Source: a candidate division WOR-3 bacterium
GTDB taxonomy: Bacteria > SDB-A
Assembly (NCBI GenBank): GCA_016926475.1
Contig: JAFGON010000027.1
Span: 1 to 55,074, forward strand
DNA: 55,074 nt
Reading direction: 5' to 3'
Shown: one piece after another, positions 15,060 through 23,283 of the stretch
How positions within the stretch are numbered: position 1 is the first letter of the stretch
Layout of the letters: each line of letters starts with the position of its first letter
Position numbers and translations under genes: made by a program
The notes under the pieces: generated by a model
Told to the model about the DNA's origin: nothing
The model's input: the letters and a program-made list of their open reading frames with translations, nothing else
The model's database searches: none

Positions 15060-16076
15060 TTACCATGCGACGATTTTCTGAGGACCGTCCCCTATTGCCC
15101 ACCTCCCTACAATGGAGTCACCCTTTAACTGCACGACGCTGTCGGCTCCGAAAGACGCTACAAAGACGCTCCCATTCCAGTATTCTACGTCCATGACGCC
15201 TTCGGGGACAAGTATGGGGTTTGACTGTCCTCTCAAAATTTCACCGCTTGAGCGGTAGAGAAATACGTTTCCATGCCCGCTCCAGCCACCCGCGGCGACA
15301 TAGACGCTGTCTCCGCCAGCAGAACTGAGCGCTCCCGGAGTACCTTCGATCAAAAAACTGTCTTGGACTGTCAAACTCAGAGGGTCAATGACGTATATTC
15401 TACCGTTGGCGGTCACTCCCCAGTCACCTGTGCAGGCAACGTGTATTTCACCGCCTACCCGGGCGAGGTACTGCGGGTTTTTCCCGACCATTATGCTGTC
15501 TGTCACCGAGTCCGTTGTCGTGCTTACCACGTAGACATATCCCTGTCCGAAACTATAGTTCGTGTTGTCGAAAGCGGTGCAGGCGACAAAAGCGCGTTGC
15601 CCCGAGACAAGAACGCCTTCCGGAGATTTTCCTACCGTAATTCTTTTTTTCACCTCAAAAGGATTTGAGGAGACCACGATCAATTCATTCGACATGAAGC
15701 ATGAGACGTAAGCCTTGGAACCTTCGCAGTCAATAGAAAATGGGTTGACAGTGGAACCTAAATTCACCGAACCATCGTGGATTATTCCGGCGCTTCCCTT
15801 TGAGTATCTGTCCAGCGTCGATGATGTTGAATTGACGACGTAGAGGTATCCTCCCATTGTGTCTGCGTCGTTCGGTACCTGACCGGTTCCGGCCGCGTTA
15901 GCTACCACGCTCCAATCCGAAGTTTTTATGAGTGAAACTGTTTCTGCCAGGTTGTTTATTACGGCAAGATAAGTTTCTGTCGGCTGTGTTCCAGGTCCGG
16001 TGGGGTCGCTCGTTGATTTCGAGCAGGAAAACGCCCCCAGGGCTAAAACCGCCAATAAAATAATCTTCTTCACCAT
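15060..16076 (-). CDS. YncE-like beta-propeller lipoprotein, candidate cobalamin-binding partner
   Basis: The 338-residue protein has a lipoprotein signal ending LGAFSC (Cys18), then repeated blade-like segments: ETYLAVINNLAETVSLI, GYLYVVNSTSSTLDRYS, KAYVSCFMSNELIVV, RAFVACTAF, EIHVACTGDWG, SVYVAAGGWSGHG and SVFVASFGAD. That is about seven blades of a YVTN/YncE-type propeller, exposed at a membrane surface. Its ATG overlaps the end of the TonB receptor gene by 7 nt, so it sits under the same cobalamin riboswitch. In Bacteroides, BtuG is a propeller lipoprotein that captures cobalamin for BtuB; the gene pair here is arranged alike. That functional parallel is inference. Confidence 0.8.
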   Translation of the reverse strand: MVKKIILLAVLALGAFSCSKSTSDPTGPGTQPTETYLAVINNLAETVSLIKTSDWSVVANAAGTGQVPNDADTMGGYLYVVNSTSSTLDRYSKGSAGIIHDGSVNLGSTVNPFSIDCEGSKAYVSCFMSNELIVVSSNPFEVKKRITVGKSPEGVLVSGQRAFVACTAFDNTNYSFGQGYVYVVSTTTDSVTDSIMVGKNPQYLARVGGEIHVACTGDWGVTANGRIYVIDPLSLTVQDSFLIEGTPGALSSAGGDSVYVAAGGWSGHGNVFLYRSSGEILRGQSNPILVPEGVMDVEYWNGSVFVASFGADSVVQLKGDSIVGRWAIGDGPQKIVAW

Positions 16077-18229
16077 GTCACACTCACCTCCGTTTTGATT
16101 GTCCTGCCCTCGACGGGCATCTGCTCGACGATGTAATACCTCTCGTCGAATATGTTTTCTAAATGCAGTGAAAAACTTAAAACCATTTTTTTTAAATCTA
16201 TCAAACGTGTAACGTAAATATTCGTTACCCTGTAAGGTTCGAGCGAAGTTCTGGATAAACCGTACGGATCGGTGTTCGCCTCCCTCGTATAGCGCCTTGC
16301 GATTTGTCTGAACTCAACTTCAGAAAAAAAGTTTTCCGATTTAAAACCAAAAGCGGCTGAAAACCTGTAGACCGGACGGTAGGTGAGATAGTTTCCGCAG
16401 TTTATATCTTTGTCAGTTCTGTTTTTGACGCTCTGCAGAGAAATTCCCGAAGTCAAAAACACTTGCCTGTTAAAATCGAGCCTCGCGTAAAAATCGCAAC
16501 CCAAACCATCCGCTTTTCCAAGGTTTTGAGGCTGATATTGGCCTTTGAAATTCCTTCTCCAGACTATCATGTCTTCGAGAATGCTATAAAAAGCTCTGGC
16601 GGAAAACAAAAAGTTCTGTCCTTTTTTCAAATCAAAATCCAAGTTCAACGTATGGGATTTTTCTGGTTCCAAATATGGGTTCCCAGCGGAATATGCGCTC
16701 TCGACGGTGTGAGTCTGGGAAAAATTCGGAAAATAGGCGTTGTGGGAAAACCCTATACCTCCTGACGCGAAAACGGCTCCTGGCTTTGAGAAAACATTCA
16801 AGAAAGAAGAATACGTCATCAAGAAATCTTCTTCAGATTCATTTGACGTAAAAACAGGCATTGCTTCAAGTTCAAGCCTCATTCTCGATTCGCCTATAAA
16901 ATCTGTGAAAACAGCTTTTGCGGATATCGAATGATCGTATCTCTTCGCGTAAACCCGAGGCATTGATTCTCTTAGCAAATCCTCGAAAAAATAGTCCTGC
17001 CTCTTGAACATTCCGCTGAACACTATCTCCAATTTGCTTTCGAATTTTCTGGAAAGTGACAGGGAAAGTTCTGTCGAGTTGCTGCCTGTCTTTGAATTTT
17101 CCGGAAAAAAATATCCGCTGTCGCTCTGTCCGGGAATCGCCTGTCTTTGGGGACAGAGGTATTGCCTTGAATTCATACCGTGAGAGACCATGGCAACGTA
17201 AGAAATATTTCCAAGAGATCCGGTAAGACTCGCCCAAGCCGTGAGGTTTAATTCTGAAAGTCTTGAAAGGGTCATCACGGATCCGTCGGCTTGACCGGGC
17301 ACACCCCTTTTCCTCCAATTGCTTAACAAAGATATCTCCAACGGAGTTCCGTCTCCTAAAAACAGCTTTACAGCAGAGCCAATTTTTCTCGAATCGTTGT
17401 TTTCAACCGCGCCTCCAGGATAACCTTCCGCCGGGTAGCCTCCGTTATAGGACTCGCATGAAAAATCCAAAGAGAGATATCTTTCTTTGAGAAATACATG
17501 GGGTAGCGCGTGAATCTGAAGAGAATAGAAATCGAAAGAACCTGCCGAGGTCCTGACTTTATTCTCTTCAGAGTTCGGCTTTTTCAAAAAAATATGCAGC
17601 TGACCGCCGGGGTCAGAACCCGCTCCCGGGTTTTTGATAATCACTATTTTTTCGACTGATGAAATGGGGATTGAAGAAACATCGAAATTCCCTGAAGAAG
17701 GGTCGTTTATTCTGATTCCGTCGATGTATATCCCAACCCTTCCGGCGGAGGGTCCGCTGAGGTACACGTTCGCATAATCTCCGGGATTCTGTCCCGTTAC
17801 CGTCACTCCGACTATATCTTCAATCGCTTCCGAAACATTCAGGCTTCCCGACCTTTCCAGCTCTTCCCTTCCTATCACTATGCCGCCGTGATATTCGTCC
17901 GGACTGCCGAAAACCGTCATACCGGAGAACTCTATGGGCTCGCAATCCATGAAGATGAAAAGATTCTTAGCCTCGGTCTGCTCGATGGAAATCGTAATTT
18001 CAAGGCTCTTGTATCCGAGTCTCTGAAAACGGAGGGAATGAACTCCCGACTGTACATTTTGGGCTGAAAATTCACCGTCTGCACCAGTCAGGCATACAAG
18101 ATCACCGTCGAGAAAAACCGTCGCCGCGTTCAAGGGAGTGAAATCGGCTGCGTCTTTCACCACTCCATGAACCAAAGCGCCTTCAGCTGAAAGCCTGACG
18201 ATTGCCGCAAACAAGAAACCTAAAAAAAT
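16070..18229 (-). CDS. TonB-dependent outer-membrane receptor under a cobalamin riboswitch (BtuB-like role)
   Basis: The protein has a CarboxypepD-regulatory-like N-terminal domain (ALVHGVVKDAADFTPLNAAT ... LGYKSL), a TonB plug (ERSGSLNVSEAIEDIVGV, VYIDGIRINDP-type region), and a beta-barrel ending VSVTW. It should import cobalamin or a related corrinoid, given the riboswitch ahead. The start is unclear. TTG at 18214 leaves a truncated signal peptide and has no Shine-Dalgarno. ATT at 18229 has GGAGG five bases upstream and restores a good signal peptide (MFLGFLFAAIVRLSAEG; 719 residues). An ATG at 18246 would also join if the T7 run held eight T. I chose ATT. The propeller lipoprotein gene overlaps its 3' end. 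Confidence 0.88.
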   Translation of the reverse strand: MFLGFLFAAIVRLSAEGALVHGVVKDAADFTPLNAATVFLDGDLVCLTGADGEFSAQNVQSGVHSLRFQRLGYKSLEITISIEQTEAKNLFIFMDCEPIEFSGMTVFGSPDEYHGGIVIGREELERSGSLNVSEAIEDIVGVTVTGQNPGDYANVYLSGPSAGRVGIYIDGIRINDPSSGNFDVSSIPISSVEKIVIIKNPGAGSDPGGQLHIFLKKPNSEENKVRTSAGSFDFYSLQIHALPHVFLKERYLSLDFSCESYNGGYPAEGYPGGAVENNDSRKIGSAVKLFLGDGTPLEISLLSNWRKRGVPGQADGSVMTLSRLSELNLTAWASLTGSLGNISYVAMVSHGMNSRQYLCPQRQAIPGQSDSGYFFPENSKTGSNSTELSLSLSRKFESKLEIVFSGMFKRQDYFFEDLLRESMPRVYAKRYDHSISAKAVFTDFIGESRMRLELEAMPVFTSNESEEDFLMTYSSFLNVFSKPGAVFASGGIGFSHNAYFPNFSQTHTVESAYSAGNPYLEPEKSHTLNLDFDLKKGQNFLFSARAFYSILEDMIVWRRNFKGQYQPQNLGKADGLGCDFYARLDFNRQVFLTSGISLQSVKNRTDKDINCGNYLTYRPVYRFSAAFGFKSENFFSEVEFRQIARRYTREANTDPYGLSRTSLEPYRVTNIYVTRLIDLKKMVLSFSLHLENIFDERYYIVEQMPVEGRTIKTEVSVTW

Positions 18230-18253
18230 AAACCCCTCCAGTTCATGGAGAGG
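18221..18253 (-). terminator. Expression platform of the cobalamin riboswitch (terminator or Shine-Dalgarno sequestering stem)
   Basis: On the minus strand CCTCTCCA and TGGAGGGG form an 8-bp stem (one G-T pair) with loop TGAAC, followed by TTTATTTTTTT. The 3' strand of the stem contains GGAGG, the only Shine-Dalgarno candidate for the receptor. The stem could therefore stop transcription, hide the ribosome site, or both. A second hairpin GCACAA/TTGTGC (18258-18273) lies just before it. Confidence 0.75.
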
Positions 18254-18307
18254 TCATGCACAAGCTTTTGTGCCCGCACACGAACCCCCCGTCGTCGCGA
18301 ATTCAAA

Positions 18308-18453
18308 TTCTTTCGGCGCCAGGTCTTCTGACTCTCGCATCTTCCTCTGGCGAACCTTCCCGGATTGCCCAGTGGTTTTTTCGCCTTCGTCCGCGATCAC
18401 AGCGGCGGGGACTGTCTCCGTTTATCGGAACTTCCCTTGTCGCCGAAGAATTT
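18308..18453 (-). promoter_or_regulatory. Cobalamin (B12) riboswitch aptamer
   Basis: Read on the minus strand, the segment has the family hallmarks in order: a P1 strand TTCTTCGGCG, GGGAAGTTCC, AGTCCCCGCCGCTGTGATC, CCACTGGGCAATCCGGGAAGG, the B12 box AGTCAGAAGACCTGG (18319-18333), and the closing P1 strand CGCCGAAAGAA. It lies between a good promoter and the receptor start. Binding of adenosylcobalamin or a relative should lower expression of the receptor and propeller genes. Confidence 0.95.
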
Positions 18454-18463
18454 TTAAGGCAAA

Positions 18464-18492
18464 ATTAAAACATTTGTGATAATAAATGTCAA
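18464..18492 (-). promoter_or_regulatory. Promoter of the cobalamin-uptake operon
   Basis: On the minus strand a perfect TTGACA (18492-18487), a 17-nt spacer and TTTAAT (18469-18464) point into the riboswitch, with transcription expected to begin near 18456, at the first aptamer strand. It overlaps the divergent parA promoter. Confidence 0.8.
18475..18483 (+). promoter_or_regulatory. Extended -10 promoter of parAB
   Basis: TGTGATAAT is an extended -10 element (TG-n-GATAAT) about 27 nt before the parA start. No -35 box is seen, as is usual for extended -10 promoters. It lies inside the spacer of the divergent cobalamin-operon promoter, so polymerases would compete. Confidence 0.5.
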
Positions 18493-20143: not shown

Positions 20144-20162
20144 CATATTGTCAGGAGGGCTA

Positions 20163-21230
20163 ATGAAAAAAACCGAAGAACGACTTAAAGAATTTTGCGA
20201 GATCCCTGGTCCAACCGGTATGGAATCCGCCGTGGCGAAAATGTTCATTGAAAAAGCGAGCTCTTTCTCCGACGAAACATACATTGACCACATTGGGAAC
20301 GCAGTTGCCGTGAAAAAAGGTAAAGGTAAAAAGAAAATTATGGCCGCCGCCCACATGGACGAAGTGGGGTTAATCGTGACGAAAATACTCAAAGGCGGAT
20401 TTCTCCGAGTCTATCAAGTAGGAGGGGTTGACAGATCCATTCTGCTGGGACAGGAAGTTGTAATACATTCTTCCGAAGGTGAAATCGAGGGCTTCATAGG
20501 CTCCAAGCCGCCTCATCTGATGTCCGGGGAAGAGACCAAAAAGCCACACACATGGGAATCCCTGTTCGTAGACACCGGCTTGGATGAAAAGGAGATACTG
20601 TCTAAAATATCGGTTGGTGATTTCATTTCCTACAAAGCGAAAAGCGTCAAGCTACTCTCAGATAATTTTTCATCCAAATCCATCGACAACAGATTCGGCG
20701 TCGCCGTTTTGGTGATGGCTCTCGAAAGGCTTTACAGGACTGAAACCGACTGGAGCTTTTACGCGGTAGGTACTGTTCAGGAAGAATGGACAGGGTTGGG
20801 CGCGAAGAGCTCTGCTAATATTATTAACCCGGACGTTGCCGTCGCGCTCGACGTCACGCACGGGAACCTGCCGGGTTTAAAGGATTCCGAGACTTTCAAT
20901 CTCGGAAAAGGCATAACACTCTCTGTAGGGCCCAACATTCACAGGGGGGTTCTGTCCAAAGCGAAAAAAATATGCGAATACGAAGAAATTCCTTTTTCTT
21001 GCGAAATAGCTCCTTACGGAACAGGAACGGACGCCTACACTATACAGCTCGTTAAAAACGGCATCCCCTGCATTGTCGTATCCGCTCCCGTCAGATCAAT
21101 GCATTCGCCGGTGGAAACCATTTCGGGTAAAGACGTGGAACGTGCGTCAAGACTTCTCTCGTCTCTTGTCAAAGAAATTGAAATTTCCGACCTCGACATA
21201 GACATTCCGGAAAAAGAGGAAAAGGAGTAG
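20163..21230 (+). CDS. M42-family aminopeptidase, copy 1
   Basis: A dinuclear-metal aminopeptidase of the M42 (glutamyl aminopeptidase/TET) family. Motifs in order: AAHMDEVG (metal His and Asp), SIDNRFG, VQEEWTGLGA (catalytic Glu pair), VALDVTHGN (metal Asp) and the final MHSPVE metal His. All metal and base residues look present. ATG 20163 is chosen because GGAGGG lies directly before it. It is the first of three tandem paralogues; the next starts 3 nt after its stop. It should trim peptides in the cytosol as a dodecamer. Its DVTHGN and APYGTGTDAY motifs differ from the two following copies. Confidence 0.93.
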   Translation: MKKTEERLKEFCEIPGPTGMESAVAKMFIEKASSFSDETYIDHIGNAVAVKKGKGKKKIMAAAHMDEVGLIVTKILKGGFLRVYQVGGVDRSILLGQEVVIHSSEGEIEGFIGSKPPHLMSGEETKKPHTWESLFVDTGLDEKEILSKISVGDFISYKAKSVKLLSDNFSSKSIDNRFGVAVLVMALERLYRTETDWSFYAVGTVQEEWTGLGAKSSANIINPDVAVALDVTHGNLPGLKDSETFNLGKGITLSVGPNIHRGVLSKAKKICEYEEIPFSCEIAPYGTGTDAYTIQLVKNGIPCIVVSAPVRSMHSPVETISGKDVERASRLLSSLVKEIEISDLDIDIPEKEEKE

Positions 21231-21233
21231 GCA

Positions 21234-22262
21234 ATGTACCTTGAAAAACTTTCAAATTTATGCGGTGTCGCCGGTTATGAGCACAACGTGAGGAAGTTCA
21301 TTAAAGACACCGTTTCCAAATACGTGTCTTCCGTGGAAACCGACGCCCTGGGGAATCTCATTTGCTTCGTAAAAGGAAAGGACAAATCGCAGAGGCTGCT
21401 CATGGCGGCTCACATGGACGAAGTCGGTTTTATCGTCGAGAGCATAGATAAGGACGGTTTTATCCATTTCACTCCGTCAGGGGGCGTAGACCCTCGAGTG
21501 CTTCCGGCGAAAAGAGTCCTCATAGGCGATAAATCGATACCCGGCATTATATGCTGGCCTCCGCCTCATTTGATGAAGAAAAAAAACGACTCAGTTCCCT
21601 CTGTTTCAACCCTCGTAATTGACATTGGAGCGGAAAATGAAAAGGCGTCCAAGGCGAAAGTTTCCGTAGGAGACTTTTTGACCTTTGACACAAAGTTTGG
21701 TTTTTTGACAAAAGACAGAATAAAGGGAAAAGCTTTCGACGACAGAATAGGCTGTTCTCTTTTGATGGACATACTAAAAAAGAAAGAAGAGTATCCTTTT
21801 GACCTTTTCGTCGTATTCACTGTTCAGGAAGAAGTTGGACTCAGAGGCGCAGGTGTCTTGGGCGAGAGACTTGACCCTAAAGCGGCGTTAATTCTCGAAG
21901 GAACAGGCGCGGCTGACTTTCCTCCCGACGATGACGAAATCGATCTGCCGCAATACCCCTCTCTCGGCAAAGGACCGGTGGTGACGATTTCAGACCGATC
22001 GATTTTCGTCGGAAAGAAAATGCTCGACCTCATAGAGAAGACAGCGAAAGAAAACAAGATCAAGTATCAGTTCAAACAACCGCAGGTCGGAGGCACAGAC
22101 GCGGGAAGAATTCACGTATCGAGAAAAGGAATTCCGAGCGCGATAATCAGCGTCCCGGCGAGATACATTCATTCGCCTGTTTCTATTTCGTCACTTTCCG
22201 ACTACAGGGAAACTCTCAAGCTGGTCGAAAGTATTATGCCGGTGATAGCAAAATCATTTTAG
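21234..22262 (+). CDS. M42-family aminopeptidase, copy 2
   Basis: Second of the three tandem M42 peptidases (342 residues). Motifs: AAHMDEVGFIV, AFDDRIGC, VQEEVGLRGAG, LILEGTGAADFP and ARYIHSPVS. Here the metal-site Asp of copy 1 (LDVT) is replaced by Glu in LEGT, as in the FrvX-like branch of the family. The active site otherwise looks intact. The start ATG is 3 nt after the previous stop, with AAAAGGAG ahead. Divergence among the three copies suggests different peptide preference, or a mixed complex. Confidence 0.92.
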   Translation: MYLEKLSNLCGVAGYEHNVRKFIKDTVSKYVSSVETDALGNLICFVKGKDKSQRLLMAAHMDEVGFIVESIDKDGFIHFTPSGGVDPRVLPAKRVLIGDKSIPGIICWPPPHLMKKKNDSVPSVSTLVIDIGAENEKASKAKVSVGDFLTFDTKFGFLTKDRIKGKAFDDRIGCSLLMDILKKKEEYPFDLFVVFTVQEEVGLRGAGVLGERLDPKAALILEGTGAADFPPDDDEIDLPQYPSLGKGPVVTISDRSIFVGKKMLDLIEKTAKENKIKYQFKQPQVGGTDAGRIHVSRKGIPSAIISVPARYIHSPVSISSLSDYRETLKLVESIMPVIAKSF

Positions 22263-22278
22263 AAAAGAGGAGATTAAG

Positions 22279-23283
22279 ATGAGAGATATCGCAGAAAAAT
22301 TCACCCAGGCTTACGGTCCTTCAGGAAGCGAAAACAAAATTCGCAAGCTGATAGAAGAAGAAGTAAAGCAATACGCCGATGAAATAAGAACGGACAGCCT
22401 CGGGAACCTGATAGTACGGAAAAAAGGTCCTGGGAAAAAAATTCTCGTAGCGGCGCACATGGACGAAATCGGAGTTATAGTTAACTATATCGACGAAAGG
22501 GGTTTCCTGAGGTTCGCCCCGGTGGGAGGTGTTTATCCTCTCATAGCAGTCGGTCAGAGAGTGGTCTTTGAAGACGGCACCCAGGGAGCGGTCGGAAGCG
22601 AGACAAGAGACATAACTCCAGGATCGGTCCCTCCACTTTCGAAAATGTTTATTGACATAGGCGCCAAAGACAAAAAAGACGCCGCGGGAAAGATCGAGAT
22701 TGGCGCTAAAGCGGGTTTTTCCCAGGCTTTCTCGGTCAATGGACAGAGATGGATATCAAAAGCCATGGACGACAGAATAGCTTGCGCTGTAATCGTCGAC
22801 GCTCTCAAAAAAATCAAGAAACCCGCAAACGATTTGTATTTCGTCTTCACCGTCCAAGAAGAAGTGGGCTTGAGGGGCGCGAAGACTTCAGCTTACGCGA
22901 TAGATCCGGACCTCGCAATAGCGGTCGATGTCACAGGCACCGGCGACACACCCAAAGGATTCGTCATGTCTGTTGAACTGGGAAAAGGACCCGGTCTAAA
23001 AGTGATGGACGCCTCAATCGTCGTCACAGAAAAGATGAAAAAATTCATGAAGAGCACCGCTGAAAAGAGAAACATACCTTTCCAGAATGAAATACTCGTC
23101 TACGGAGGAACCGACGCCGGAGCTTTCCACTTGACAAAATCGGGAATTCACTCGGGCTGTATTTCTATTCCGGCGAGATACATTCACTCTCCCAGCGAAA
23201 TGATAGATTCTCAAGACGCGGAAAACGCTTCCAAATGGCTTGTTTCAATATGTGAAACTGACGCCGCGGCTTCGGGATTTTAA
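22279..23283 (+). CDS. M42-family aminopeptidase, copy 3
   Basis: Third tandem M42 peptidase (334 residues). Motifs: AAHMDEIGVIV, AMDDRIAC, VQEEVGLRGAK, AVDVTGTGDTP and ARYIHSPSE. The metal ligands and the catalytic Glu are present. It combines the DVT form of copy 1 with the QEEVGLRGA form of copy 2. AGAGGAG precedes the ATG. It runs with a 3-nt gap into the RNase PH gene, so peptide recycling and RNA processing are co-transcribed. Confidence 0.92.
   Translation: MRDIAEKFTQAYGPSGSENKIRKLIEEEVKQYADEIRTDSLGNLIVRKKGPGKKILVAAHMDEIGVIVNYIDERGFLRFAPVGGVYPLIAVGQRVVFEDGTQGAVGSETRDITPGSVPPLSKMFIDIGAKDKKDAAGKIEIGAKAGFSQAFSVNGQRWISKAMDDRIACAVIVDALKKIKKPANDLYFVFTVQEEVGLRGAKTSAYAIDPDLAIAVDVTGTGDTPKGFVMSVELGKGPGLKVMDASIVVTEKMKKFMKSTAEKRNIPFQNEILVYGGTDAGAFHLTKSGIHSGCISIPARYIHSPSEMIDSQDAENASKWLVSICETDAAASGF

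Follow-up and report, generated by a model that had tools for sequence, protein, structure and literature searches.

The window analysed here, a 55,074-nt stretch from a candidate division WOR-3 bacterium, most likely carries (probability about 0.86) a riboswitch-controlled operon of a BtuB-type TonB-dependent receptor and a BtuG-type propeller lipoprotein, the single outer-membrane entry route for vitamin B12 found in a host apparently unable to synthesize it. The analysis shows by computation the riboswitch and the gene pair as well as their fold, homology, conservation and genomic setting. The original prediction of a BtuB/BtuG-like pair is largely supported by the fold, the receptor relatives, the gene linkage and the genome context.

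The leader and both genes are read from the minus strand. A sigma-70-type promoter, TTGACA-N17-TTTAAT (18464-18492), was recognized by sequence reading, with its hexamers at 18492-18487 and 18469-18464 separated by a 17-nt spacer. The motif TTGACA-N17-TWWAAT is equally placed in two other species of the genus (L045 8942-8970 and L046 6322-6350), which supports the promoter; the absence of any hit at the leader in an automatic promoter scan is a threshold effect, because that scan requires A at position 2 of the -10 hexamer. The RF00174 covariance model matches a cobalamin riboswitch aptamer at 18478-18301 over its full length (model positions 1-189) at 64.0 bits, where the gathering threshold is 31.5, with an E-value of 1.4e-13. 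The aptamer has the B12 box GAGUCAGAAGACCUG and is the only RF00174 match in the 2.15-Mb genome. Folding and comparison of four genomes identified an intrinsic terminator (18222-18255) with a 10-bp stem at 18255-18231, GACCTCTCC-ATGAACT-GGAGGGGTT, followed by the U-tract TATTTTTTTA. The stem has a folding energy of -16.5 kcal/mol (z -3.1) and the terminator is kept in each of the phylum's other three genomes; one stem pair varies between U-G, U-A and C-G across the four with retention of the stem. Its 3' arm, GGAGGGG, resembles a Shine-Dalgarno sequence. The complete aptamer with B12 box, the stem-plus-T-run expression platform and the consensus promoter that had been proposed from the letters alone are thus all found, and the boundaries given to the element were exact from the first promoter base through the end of the T-run.

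The receptor gene (16070-18229) was assigned a TTG start at 18214 by the ORF program. This is probably not the start used, since it cuts into the hydrophobic signal peptide; a better candidate is the in-frame ATT at 18229, or else CTG at 18241. In the leader comparison the in-frame ATT is the sole start candidate common to all four species (window, L045, L046 and L048), placed 5-8 nt past the terminator's GGAGG-like 3' arm. Examples of what it would yield are MFKYVLITVLFFPAASFCA (G002) and MLRFCWIMLIPVSLICA (G003). Alternative starts lie upstream in two of the four species, ATG in G001 and CTG in the window. A possible AUU start directly behind the terminator stem is therefore kept in the four species and, if right, the stem would also sequester the ribosome-binding site. 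With this start the U-tract would fall around the beginning of the signal peptide.

Domain and profile matches assign the product to TonB-dependent receptors with plug (4e-15) and barrel (1e-13), as expected from the initial reading, plus an N-terminal carboxypeptidase-regulatory-like domain (CarbopepD_reg_2, residues 15-94) that the solved BtuB1 does not have. Searched alone against the PDB, the receptor gives BtuB2 as its best match (9e-13), next BtuB3 and BtuB1, then E. coli BtuB. A small receptor profile, which includes one Bacteroidales receptor, matches BtuB1 with an E-value of 2e-96 over profile positions 88-723, siderophore receptors scoring far lower. TIGR01779/PRK10641 is the best NCBIfam match by E-value, although its score of 74.2 bits is far under the equivalog cut-off of 599.7; the protein is therefore a BtuB relative and not that equivalog. 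The AlphaFold2 model of the receptor is poor (pLDDT 63), too low for mapping the extracellular loop EL8.

The second gene (15060-16076) overlaps the receptor stop by 7 nt (16070-16076), an arrangement kept in G001, G002 and G012 that makes translational coupling probable. It codes for the propeller lipoprotein announced by the original prediction, with lipobox AFSC and lipid Cys at residue 18. Modelled with AlphaFold2 from seven sequences, the protein shows 28 strands forming seven blades of four (pLDDT 88.4, pTM 0.86). Foldseek against the PDB places BtuG at ranks 1 to 12 and in 16 of the 17 best matches, with E-values of about 1e-16 to 1e-14 and TM of about 0.74, many of them to cobalamin-bound structures (8okv, 8bmz, 8ptf); pairwise identity in these matches is only about 16-17%. 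The archaeal YVTN S-layer protein 1l0q follows slightly weaker at rank 13 (3e-15), and E. coli YncE (3vgz/7seu) is clearly weaker (2e-9), although both share repeat type and fold with the window propeller. Neither YncE nor 1l0q is known to act in B12 uptake. Identification of the propeller as YncE itself was rejected: the Pfam YNCE match is below cut-off, the fold match to E. coli YncE is much weaker than to BtuG, and the riboswitch linkage would be left unexplained.

Sequence scores by themselves do not favour BtuG over the generic YVTN propeller 1l0q, which does equally well or better. A phmmer search of the PDB with the single window propeller gives S-layer YVTN repeats at 8e-11 and BtuG1 chains at 1.1e-7. 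Since pairwise comparison fails to separate BtuG from generic YVTN propellers, tests of profile, fold and linkage were added. A profile of 27 riboswitch-linked propellers of the family matches BtuG1-3 with E-values of 1e-22 to 1e-30, and for BtuG2 and BtuG3 the alignment spans the whole propeller. The nearest known system, by best fold match for the propeller and best receptor match, is BtuB-BtuG of B. thetaiotaomicron (loci 1-3; 8blw, 8bmx, 8p97/8p98), which likewise has a cobalamin riboswitch, a TonB-dependent BtuB and an adjacent seven-blade propeller lipoprotein. In contrast to those loci, btuFCD is elsewhere in the WOR-3 genome and there is no btuH-type gene adjacent. E. coli BtuB is likewise a TonB-dependent B12 receptor but works without a propeller partner. 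XusA-XusB of Bacteroides also has a propeller lipoprotein (DUF4374) as lid on a TonB-dependent receptor; it differs by its weaker fold match (2e-9 versus 1e-16), its ligand and its receptor branch.

A lipobox (AFSC, LFSC or ISSC) precedes a conserved CSK, with which the mature protein starts, in the four species of the phylum. After its lipid Cys the window propeller (CSKSTSDPTG, without an acidic run) lacks the lipoprotein export signal of Bacteroidetes, unlike B. thetaiotaomicron BtuG; according to PMC6143338 only Bacteroidetes have this signal. In G004 and other lineages the propeller has no lipobox and ends in a C-terminal type IX secretion sorting domain, while the G012 propeller has a weakly supported dockerin-like tail. 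BtuG-like propellers without lipobox are also encoded in L049 (6011-7351), L050 (7639-8919), L094, L100, L112 and L115, whose C-termini are or resemble type IX secretion sorting tails. Such tails point to another route by which the same B12 lid is displayed.

The unit recurs widely with B12 riboswitches. Of the outcomes that the original prediction named as refuting it, the lack of a seven-blade fold and the lack of recurrence were examined, and both tests went in its favour. A survey of 386 genomes with a profile of eight propellers gave 57 strong matches (E < 1e-20) in 49 genomes, 45 of which lie downstream of RF00174 on the same strand at 0.1-5.7 kb; less than one such neighbour is expected by chance, given about one riboswitch per 2-5 Mb genome. 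A linked propeller is present in 40 of the 44 strong-match genomes that possess any RF00174. In the four exceptions (G003, G297, G299 and G081) riboswitch and propeller are on separate, mostly short contigs, and in the first three the receptor gene is cut at the contig end. Five loci whose strong propeller had no riboswitch linked to it in the genome search were re-scanned permissively, again without a match. Among 53 propellers of at least 80 bits, 34 have a TonB-dependent receptor (TBDT) gene directly upstream on the same strand and three more directly downstream; receptor and propeller genes overlap or are within 10 nt in 23. A degenerate-pattern scan used a narrower alignment, the wide alignment (A2) having no stretch conserved enough.

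A search of the whole phylum yielded four species in total, all with the propeller. The three sister genomes (G001-G003) have riboswitch, receptor and propeller, the G003 contig breaking between the last two; G002 is a sister species of the same genus (JAFGIG010000109, candidate division WOR-3 bacterium) and G003 belongs to a related genus (LKUE01, labelled Desulfuromonas sp. SDB). The same three genomes keep the order of another segment of the window (20148-23283), where three consecutive similar genes, named by sequence appearance only, resemble M42-type aminopeptidases beside parA-parB-like genes. Members with names belong to WOR-3 (L059, L061), Zixibacteria (L062) and Bacteroidales (L063), the Bacteroidales locus having riboswitch, TBDT and propeller in identical order. 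RpoB identities between positive genomes, leaving out G195 (wrong ORF), are mostly 50-69%, a phylum-level spread. The linked unit is found in nineteen first-pass genomes and in the phylum of the window; the sampling lists one genome per family in its first pass and later returns to the same groups, which we read as one genome per phylum, so that the positive genomes would span about 20 phylum-level lineages.

Several loci show further arrangements. In L049 (11363-11929) and L052 (4634-5239) a small ECF-type membrane protein is encoded between the cobalamin riboswitch and the receptors; PF12822 is found in the L052 protein and, weaker, in that of L049, and this protein may be an inner-membrane S component for corrinoids that belongs to the operon. 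The first gene behind a cobalamin riboswitch in G008 codes for a YncE-like propeller (L055 7693-8922); the genes after it resemble an operon for cobalamin biosynthesis, and a second, divergent riboswitch lies close by. Two propellers are found around one receptor or behind one riboswitch in L094 (G139), L061, L124 (G120) and G068.

The original prediction had left the choice between a separate evolution and an old relative of the Bacteroides system. The second option is favoured, because the propeller profile aligns with BtuG1-3 and the receptors are BtuB relatives; it also fits better because the linked pair spans the about 20 phylum-level lineages. Independent recruitment, in which BtuB acquired a YVTN propeller on its own in this lineage in convergence with Bacteroidetes BtuG, is unlikely. 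It would account for the deep divergence and the missing Bacteroidetes-type export signal, and the backbone of the propeller tree, with its many long branches, is unresolved, so that the tree does not decide between vertical descent and transfer. In that tree, however, BtuG1 and BtuG2 branch inside the riboswitch-linked propellers, with weak support; B. thetaiotaomicron BtuG2 groups with G346, and BtuG1 joins L063 of the Bacteroidales. The alignment of the profile over whole BtuG2 and BtuG3, and the presence of both partners and the riboswitch in many lineages, also argue against convergence. We privilege the hypothesis that the window propeller is an old relative of BtuG.

The BtuG2 residues named as B12 contacts are Trp194, Tyr239, Trp272, Tyr316 and Tyr335 (PMC10404256). 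Tyr239 aligns with Trp219 of the window propeller, a position occupied by Y, W or F in 25 of 27 family members, whereas the upper-ligand pocket differs: in place of Trp194, Trp272 and Tyr316 the window propeller has Thr, Thr and Met, and Tyr335 lies opposite an alignment gap. BtuG1 binds cobalamin and likewise deviates from BtuG2 at Trp194, Trp272 and Tyr316. Conserved family positions crowd on the loops of the BtuG ligand face, those that lead into every innermost strand and out of every second strand, to which the BtuG2 contact residues map (35 of 47 conserved positions within 112 of 303 positions, p 1.4e-8). This clustering is only suggestive of a shared ligand face because turn Gly and Pro would partly cluster there in any propeller. 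It is quite unlikely that only the receptor serves B12 transport and that its partner is a generic YVTN/YncE-type surface protein for another ligand or an aid to receptor assembly. Such a role would agree with the 1l0q sequence scores that equal or exceed those of BtuG, with Pfam YNCE and DUF5074 matches that stay below cut-off and with the poor conservation of most BtuG2 upper-ligand residues. Against it stand the riboswitch adjacency in 40 of 44 genomes, the Foldseek ranking of BtuG well above YncE and XusB and, within the limit just given, the conserved ligand-face loops.

The genome, listed as 100% complete, gives the context of a B12 consumer. No match was found in it to the B12-synthesis markers CbiC and CobS, and the host therefore probably cannot make cobalamin. 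Both parts of methylmalonyl-CoA mutase, MeaB and the epimerase are encoded in one cluster, and btuF-, btuD- and btuC-like genes together with the adenosyltransferase gene cobO in another. Since the operon, btuF-btuD-btuC-cobO and methylmalonyl-CoA mutase are all found, the B12 pathway appears complete from outer membrane to enzyme, and no other riboswitch-controlled locus for B12 import than this operon was found in the genome. Import of a corrinoid precursor, another cobalt compound or a siderophore instead of B12, conceivable from the binding of cobinamide by BtuG2 (PMC10404256) and from siderophore propeller-TBDT pairs (XusAB, PMC13142918), is very unlikely in view of the cobalamin type of the riboswitch, the absence of CobS, which leaves no cobinamide salvage to complete cobalamin by the usual route, and a receptor that matches BtuB above siderophore receptors.

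From the BtuB-BtuG reading of the operon we infer the direction of switching, the surface exposure of the propeller, corrinoid binding, the motion of the lid and the hand-over of the vitamin. When cobalamin is scarce the leader would be read through, and receptor and propeller would be made from one transcript. When it is plentiful, cobalamin would bind the aptamer, the terminator hairpin would form and expression would drop, the 3' arm of the hairpin probably also masking the likely ribosome-binding site. The lipid-anchored propeller, on the outer face of the outer membrane, could capture corrinoids at the rim of its central channel, shut as a lid over the BtuB barrel, as in the mechanism of BtuG described by Abellon-Ruiz et al. 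2023 (PMC10404256), and pass the vitamin on for TonB-driven import. BtuF-BtuCD, the CobO adenosyltransferase and methylmalonyl-CoA mutase would be the subsequent steps.

BtuG was reported exclusively in Bacteroidetes by Wexler et al. 2018, who searched 313 gut genomes by BlastP with a criterion of E < 1e-10 to BT1490, BT1954 or BT2095 (PMC6143338). No description of BtuG outside Bacteroidetes was found in the open-access papers, the literature covered here. In the present survey the pairing occurs in many distant bacterial lineages. We lean slightly towards the view that lid-assisted, BtuBG-type B12 import is ancient and widespread, present in some twenty phylum-level lineages or more, that lipid anchor, type IX secretion tail and dockerin-like tail are interchangeable means of displaying the lid, and that E. 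coli BtuB, which has no lid, is the exception. For DUF4465/BtuJ, another B12 binder, a 2026 paper that finds it in eight clades came to a similar view (PMC13398666). The family also offers a rule by which many YncE-like propellers that lack annotation can be named, and distant homologues for studies of binding and of the lid. If the view of an ancient import system is true, BtuBG-type import was not invented by gut Bacteroidetes. Its occurrence as a riboswitch-BtuB-propeller unit in candidate phyla without cultured members would recast what has been a matter of gut ecology as the general problem of how a scarce vitamin is captured.
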